From positions 1 through 41,510 of the forward strand of contig JAFIET010000028.1 of the NCBI GenBank assembly GCA_020832405.1: a DNA stretch of 41,510 bases, read 5' to 3'. Made by a program: the position numbers and the translations under genes. Shown piece after piece: positions 28,666-29,899 of this stretch (the first letter of the stretch is position 1; the number at the start of each line of letters is the position of its first letter). The notes below the pieces were generated by a model. That model searched no databases, was not told where the DNA came from, and worked only from the letters and a program-made list of their open reading frames with translations. This DNA comes from Balneolales bacterium. GTDB taxonomy: Bacteria; Bacteroidota; Rhodothermia; Balneolales; Cyclonatronaceae.

Positions 28666-29541
28666 TTAATTGGTTTCGCCGTCGCGGTTGTAGTCGTATC
28701 CATTAGCGTTGCTCATGATCTGAGCTACGATGGTGAGCAGGATACCGTAAACTACTTTTGAAGAAACGTCGGCGATGGTGTAGGTGAGCTGACGACCAAC
28801 TACAGCTGCCTCAGCGGCAAGACCTGTGAGCGAGGGCTCGAGTCCTGGCGGGATGAGGTATGGCATCAGGTAGGCGCCAGGGTAGAGCATCCATGACCAG
28901 AAGAAAACAACCCAGATGTAATTCATGTAACGGGCTGCATCAGCAGGAATTCCTTCAGAACCTTCAGCGATAACTTTCTTCATGGTGATAAGGATATCAA
29001 TGAAGAAAACCGTAGAAATGGTACCCCAAACTACGAACAGGGTGAAGTTGGTTACTTCGTAGTACTGACCAATGTAACCGGTGAGAATCATGAGTGTACC
29101 GGAAATCCAGAAGCGGTTACGCACAGAAGAAAAGCTGCTCTTTGTGAGTGTTACAACAAACAGGATTTGGAAAAGAAGCATGGGTACGTCAATCAACCAG
29201 TTCAGGTAACGGTAACCGTTATTGAACAGCGCAGCGCCGTCGGCCAGGAAGTAGCGGCCCTGATCGGTATCAAAGGCAAAAGCATTTACCCAGTTCTGAG
29301 CCTGAATGAAGAGCAGGAGCCCTGCTGATACCATTACCACAACCGAAAGAACGGCTGTTGTGCGGTACTTTGGCTGTACGGTTTTAATGGTGAGAATGAA
29401 ATAGATGAGCGCTGCAAACATCACAGCATACCCCACCGTTAGTACGTGTGCTACCATTTGGAACGACATTTCGGACAGTCCGTTTTCGAGACCGACGTAG
29501 TTCTCAAAGGTAGCATTACCTAGTCTTTCTGTAGCTTGCAT
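28666..29541 (-). CDS. Light-driven sodium-pumping rhodopsin (NDQ type, KR2-like)
   Basis: This 291-residue seven-helix retinal protein closely resembles KR2 of Krokinobacter. Helix C reads RYLNWLIDVPMLLFQ: Arg111, Asn114, Asp118 and Gln125 form the NDQ motif that marks Na+ pumps (KR2 Arg109, Asn112, Asp116, Gln123). The retinal Schiff-base Lys262 lies in IADVSSKVVYG, with Asp258 (KR2 Asp251) and Arg250 (KR2 Arg243) conserved. His32 and Ser72 match KR2 His30 and Ser70. Gly173 in VWGTIST is the small residue that leaves an opening for a carotenoid antenna in some rhodopsins. Differences from KR2 are Ala63 (Asn61), Phe27 (Tyr25), Ala104 (Asp102) and Thr270 (Gly263), sites linked in KR2 to ion uptake, external Na+ binding and selectivity. 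No retinal-synthesis gene is nearby. A 20-bp palindrome lies 35 bases upstream. Confidence 0.96.
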   Translation of the reverse strand: MQATERLGNATFENYVGLENGLSEMSFQMVAHVLTVGYAVMFAALIYFILTIKTVQPKYRTTAVLSVVVMVSAGLLLFIQAQNWVNAFAFDTDQGRYFLADGAALFNNGYRYLNWLIDVPMLLFQILFVVTLTKSSFSSVRNRFWISGTLMILTGYIGQYYEVTNFTLFVVWGTISTVFFIDILITMKKVIAEGSEGIPADAARYMNYIWVVFFWSWMLYPGAYLMPYLIPPGLEPSLTGLAAEAAVVGRQLTYTIADVSSKVVYGILLTIVAQIMSNANGYDYNRDGETN

Positions 29542-29575
29542 AGTCAGAGAGTTAGATTATTAGTGAATTGAGCCA

Positions 29576-29618
29576 CAAAACGATGTATCGTTTTGGTGTT
29601 TTGCTTAGCGTTTTGTGG
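29576..29618 (-). promoter_or_regulatory. Palindromic element upstream of the rhodopsin gene
   Basis: CAAAACGATGTATCGTTTTG (29576-29595) is a perfect 9-bp inverted repeat with a two-base centre, 35-54 bases before the rhodopsin ATG. A further CGTTTTGTGG at 29609-29618 is the complement of CCACAAAACG at 29573-29582. Three CAAAACG-type half sites are therefore clustered. It may be an operator for a dimeric regulator or a leader hairpin. No other gene is seen in 29542-29899. Confidence 0.55.
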
Positions 29619-29899
29619 TTAGGTATTGCGCATAACATGACCCTTATGCATTTCGTTTGGCTAAACGTCTATTTTTCTTTAAAAAACTTTCCGTTTGGGT
29701 CTAAGTGTATGTGCAGCAATGTTTTGTTGAAAGCGCTTTTTTTGTGGTTCTAAATATCAGATTAACAGTGTTTTGCCAATTGTACTGTGTTCCCGAATCT
29801 GTAGTGATATGGTGCCCATAGACTTAAATATTAAGCAAACGATTGAAGCCCCGGCAGGTGTTTGGCTGAAACAGCTATCTGTACTTAACCCTGATTAAT

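Follow-up and report, generated by a model that had tools for sequence, protein, structure and literature searches.

What the inverted repeat in front of a rhodopsin gene does, and whether it acts as DNA or as RNA, is the question raised by this locus, which lies in a genome that its nearest relatives place in Balneolia. A preliminary description of the window (the whole stretch of DNA analyzed, 41,510 nucleotides) had reported a perfect palindrome with an additional half site and had offered two explanations, i.e., binding of a dimeric regulator that possibly responds to light or salt, or a hairpin in an RNA leader. The description of the letters is accurate: CAAAACGAT-GT-ATCGTTTTG at 29576-29595 is an exact 9+2+9 inverted repeat, CGTTTTG is present at 29609-29615, and palindrome and half site together lie 35 to 77 nt upstream of the rhodopsin ATG (29541). 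The translation of the rhodopsin gene contains RYLNWLIDVPMLLFQ, with N, D, and Q at KR2-type spacing, which we take to be that of KR2 N112/D116/Q123 in helix C and to mark the NDQ sodium-pump family; judged from its translation, the gene at 28666-29541 is a KR2-type NDQ light-driven sodium pump. In many relatives, the retinal synthesis gene blh adjoins the rhodopsin gene; here it lies on a separate contig (C156). The features of the locus are as follows:

28666-29541, minus strand: sodium-pump (NDQ, KR2-like) rhodopsin gene, 291 amino acids (Pfam Bac_rhodopsin, 1.3e-40).
29542-29572, minus strand: A/U-rich stretch of 31 nt from stem to ATG, predicted from sequence and leader folds to be unpaired, without a Shine-Dalgarno signal; putative ribosome landing site.
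29573-29582, minus strand: outer stem, 3' arm of the RNA (CGUUUUGUGG), a perfect 10-bp pair with 29609-29618; kept in the nearest relative, L084.
29576-29595, no strand: 9+2+9 palindrome, competing with the outer stem for the arm at 29576-29582; two of nine pairs broken in L084.
29609-29618, minus strand: outer stem, 5' arm of the RNA (CCACAAAACG), including the CGTTTTG half site and pairing with 29573-29582; kept in L084.
29633-29637, minus strand: TGTTA box, putative -10-like promoter element (TGTTA, TGTTT, or GGTTT in the nearest orthologs).
29652-29658, minus strand: AAACGAA box, putative -35-like promoter element, or else the site of an activator, located 40 nt upstream of the stem and common to the nearest orthologs.

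The palindrome is not the longest pairing at this site. A repeat finder recovered a perfect 10-bp pair overlooked in the preliminary description, which joins CCACAAAACG (29573-29582) to CGTTTTGTGG (29609-29618) across a 26-nt loop and uses the extra half site together with one arm of the palindrome. Since the palindrome and this outer stem share the arm at 29576-29582, the two stems are mutually exclusive. As had been said of the palindrome, this is not an intrinsic terminator (a G+C-rich stem followed by a T-run), because the T-run is absent 3' of the stem on both strands. Inverted repeats of 9 bp with a short spacer are not rare here, with four in the 41-kb window compared to one to six in shuffled sequence. 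Within the 358-nt intergenic region, an inverted repeat of at least 9 bp (loop of at most 40 nt) is uncommon (4.8% of shuffles), and a 10-bp pair like the outer stem occurs in 1.2%. Folding of the isolated 46-nt element gives -10.0 kcal/mol for the outer stem compared to -7.3 kcal/mol for the inner one; in the 95-nt leader, the predicted minimum-energy fold takes the inner hairpin, not the outer stem. The folding energy of this single leader is unremarkable (z = -0.90), and the case for a stem rests on comparison. Rfam 15, riboswitches included, gave no covariance-model match to the leader; the two hits obtained were at chance level (15.2 and 14.5 bits), far under their gathering scores.

Comparison with the nearest relative separates the two stems. 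In L084, the rhodopsin leader of G005 (a complete genome, with a rhodopsin 95% identical), two of nine palindrome pairs are broken, and all 10 positions of the outer stem remain paired, one A-U pair having become G-C by a double change and another having become a G-U wobble. As the window and L084 are two sequences, this compensation is not significant alone and gains weight from the order-wide pattern described below. In the rest of the genus, the sequence at the position of the palindrome is unrelated. The conservation check proposed in the preliminary description thus speaks against the palindrome, which is not conserved upstream of the orthologous genes in close relatives. A 28-codon upstream reading frame running through the hairpin was also considered as a conserved leader peptide and was rejected by eye, since most differences between the window and L084 would alter the encoded amino acid and the stop codon is lost.

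Beyond L084, the near orthologs (84 to 89% identical) have different sequence at the same place, nearly all with a stem of their own. The arms of these stems include TTCATGTA/TACATGAA, TTCATGG/CCATGAA, AATCACGGATAA/TTATTCGTGGTT, ATGTAAACT/GGTTTACAT, GATGCAT/ATGCATC, and ATGCATTT/AAATGCAT; in L088, an 11-bp stem lies farther upstream instead and ends 44 nt before the ATG. More distant Balneolales orthologs again have unrelated sequence, and most carry their own stem ending about 25 to 38 nt upstream of the ATG. MAFFT did not bring the arms into register when the whole clade was aligned, and per-leader statistics and sister-species pairs were therefore used. For the 10 nearest leaders, with a stem end 24 to 34 nt before the ATG (an interval fixed after inspecting these same leaders), the combined p value against dinucleotide shuffles is 7.5e-9, which, as for all combined p values here, overstates independence because the leaders are related; windows slid upstream give p = 0.37, 0.93, and 0.02. 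The interval was kept unchanged for 35 other Balneolales leaders, which had been displayed before the test but were not used in setting it, and there the mean z is 1.16 compared to 0.12 for 318 control leaders of other genes (Mann-Whitney U test, p = 1.7e-6). A wider test on 77 leaders from outside the clade also gave a positive excess, which on splitting proved to come mostly from Balneolales; among 46 sodium-pump rhodopsin leaders from outside Balneolales, in other Bacteroidota, the excess was not significant (0.17, p = 0.09).

Covariation within the order can be followed in leaders that share a box. Twenty-three leaders picked solely by a TGAAC box contain short hairpins with A-rich loops, and their summed stem score exceeds that of shuffles (z = 6.9, compared to -0.2 when slid by 60 nt). 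The arm sequences are distinct in 16 of the 18 stems scoring at least 13. Five leaders of this group, which have the motif AACCTTAAACAAACCAC downstream in common, can be aligned across the stem, where 89.7% of cells are paired compared to 23 to 44% in slid positions, and four pairs are changed on both sides. In the sister pair L092 and L093 (from G033 and G041), three adjacent stem pairs are changed on both sides, and this concerted change retains two mutually exclusive stems, with three double changes in each. In these two leaders, three segments about 38 to 91 nt before the ATG change together (GGTTG to GGAAA, GCAAC to GTTTC, and CAACC to TTTCC). As read from the two sequences, the change may reflect either a bistable leader or a single template-switch event.

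The rhodopsin leader also stands out among the leaders of other genes. In G005, its stem z of 5.44 ranks first among 234 leaders (from 620 kb sampled of the complete genome), a comparison in which the start codons of the control leaders are first-ATG guesses and their positions are consequently blurred. The next-ranked leaders in G005 (DJ-1/PfpI, amidohydrolase, inositol phosphatase, and others) have no common theme. The idea that blh shares this leader was rejected on inspection, a comparable stem not being seen in blh leaders.

Sequence upstream of the stem suggests where the transcript begins. The nearest orthologs share AAACGAA, followed after about 14 nt by TGTTA or TGTTT, and in the TGAAC group, TGAAC itself precedes the stem by 32 to 42 nt in 15 of 18 leaders, at a distance similar to that of the AAACGAA box. 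Taken across the window (29633-29658) and the TGAAC group, the promoter-like boxes read AAACGAA, GAACG, or TGAACT, with TGTT about 14 to 16 nt on. Such boxes look like -35/-10 elements, and the GAAC type recalls promoters of ECF sigma factors. Read as a -35/-10 promoter, they would put the stem close to the 5' end of the transcript, which would start roughly 1 to 10 nt upstream of the stem. Farther upstream, about 160 to 200 nt before the ATG, the leaders L087, L088, L008, L090, and L091 carry a conserved CGTTCATTATT upstream of AAACGA. This motif forms an inverted pair with the AAACGA region (TCGTTYATT and AATAAACGA) and is possibly a regulator site.

If the palindrome acted as DNA, a dimeric light- or salt-responsive regulator bound to it and to the half site would control transcription of the rhodopsin gene. 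Operators of such regulators, of which the CarH/LitR type is an example, likewise show dyad symmetry near the promoter of a light-related gene; the palindrome in the window is exact, close to the promoter region, and accompanied by a third half site, and a link to salt is attractive because the gene encodes a sodium pump. However, an operator should persist among close species, and here the dyad is broken in L084, and other members of the genus have unrelated sequence in its place. In the genome search suggested in the preliminary description, the palindrome itself was present once, and one other site came within three mismatches, with more for a backward control pattern, and no regulon is visible in this search, which a regulator with a single target would escape. 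In addition, the inferred promoter lies upstream of the palindrome, so that an operator would fall inside the transcribed leader. Control through such an operator is therefore very improbable, and of the two explanations first offered, the dimeric regulator falls; the leader hairpin stands, but with the outer pair as its stem. Less probable still is that the element is an ordinary inverted repeat arising by chance in an A/T-rich intergenic region. The number of short-spacer repeats in the window and the lack of conservation of the palindrome would keep chance plausible for the inner palindrome alone, but the comparative data speak against it for the overlapping outer stem, which is kept with compensation and whose counterparts recur at the same place across the order.

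Two further explanations were considered. When replication switches template, hairpins are created and maintained, and several bases can change at once in a compensatory way (PMC8794818); such switching could make and repair inverted repeats here without selection for an RNA stem. The block changes in L092/L093 fit such a process, which predicts neither the fixed distance to the ATG in many lineages nor the excess over slid windows and over the leaders of other genes, and we consider it an unlikely source of the stems as a whole. Alternatively, the leader could be bistable, with two exclusive stems sharing an arm and a signal (salt, temperature, RNA, or protein) tuning rhodopsin output. Both alternative stems are kept in L092/L093, and the window has an inner and an outer stem that are built on a common arm, with 2.7 kcal/mol between them. 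However, the second stem is lost in L084, neither stem extends to the region of the start codon, and the triple change in L092/L093 could be one template-switch event. Because of the loss in L084, a bistable leader is a minority reading, one that we regard as unlikely; it is equally unlikely that Balneolales rhodopsin leaders at large are bistable RNA switches through which salt, temperature, or light-linked physiology sets the amount of the sodium pump.

The preferred reading is a leader hairpin. The arms are complementary and lie at a fixed distance from the ATG, sister species differ by compensatory changes, and such a stem is rare in the leaders of other genes, which together suggest that the leader stem is very probably under selection; compensatory changes and a fixed position, by which a selected leader stem is recognized, are both found in the rhodopsin leader. 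That the selected element is an mRNA stem-loop, whose letters turn over between species as pairing and position are kept, is well supported by these comparisons. What the hairpin does is less certain, and we slightly favor a structured 5' leader of the rhodopsin mRNA with a 5'-proximal hairpin, possibly protecting the 5' end. In the window, the selected stem-loop would be the 10-bp pairing of 29609-29618 with 29573-29582 around a 26-nt loop, in a transcript that, going by the promoter-like boxes, would begin a few bases upstream of the stem. Positioned there, the stem could hinder 5'-end-dependent decay of the message for a membrane protein, assumed here to be abundant, and the roughly 25 to 31 unpaired A/U-rich nucleotides that follow could offer ribosomes a landing site that lacks a Shine-Dalgarno signal. 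For such a protective and insulating role of a stem at the mRNA 5' end, we judge the case evenly balanced.

There is precedent for 5' structure that slows mRNA decay (PMC3997798). The mRNA-stabilizing 5'-terminal stem-loops of E. coli ompA-type leaders, the principle of which is reviewed in PMC3997798, resemble the rhodopsin leader: both precede a membrane-protein gene and have a stem near the 5' end (inferred, for the rhodopsin transcript), followed by an unpaired stretch for ribosome binding. In contrast to them, the rhodopsin leader is known from sequence alone, shows near-complete sequence turnover between species, lacks a Shine-Dalgarno signal, and has a long loop (26 to 36 nt) in the genus of the window. 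Structured RNAs of cyanobacterial and phage photosystem genes are likewise tied to genes for light-energy proteins, but come from other organisms and were described with rhodopsin unmentioned, and the rhodopsin leader has no Rfam match.

Leader hairpins are already known as a kind, and the present one is best filed among them; what is unusual in it is the fast turnover of its sequence. Little work appears to have been done on post-transcriptional control of microbial rhodopsins: a literature search found nothing on the leader structure of rhodopsin mRNAs. Rhodopsin is also absent from a survey of candidate RNAs (PMC2864571). A leader hairpin present across a lineage with near-complete turnover would offer a natural case for studying how compensatory changes in stems evolve, by selection or by template switching. 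Should the stabilizing role hold, the leader would be a candidate part for expressing rhodopsins in hosts whose translation does not use Shine-Dalgarno signals. Balneolales also encode rhodopsins of another type (about 30% identical), of which eight leaders (L202 to L209) were inspected. The stems in these are weakly suggestive: L203 and L204 reach z above 2, but those of L208 and L209 run into promoter-like sequence.
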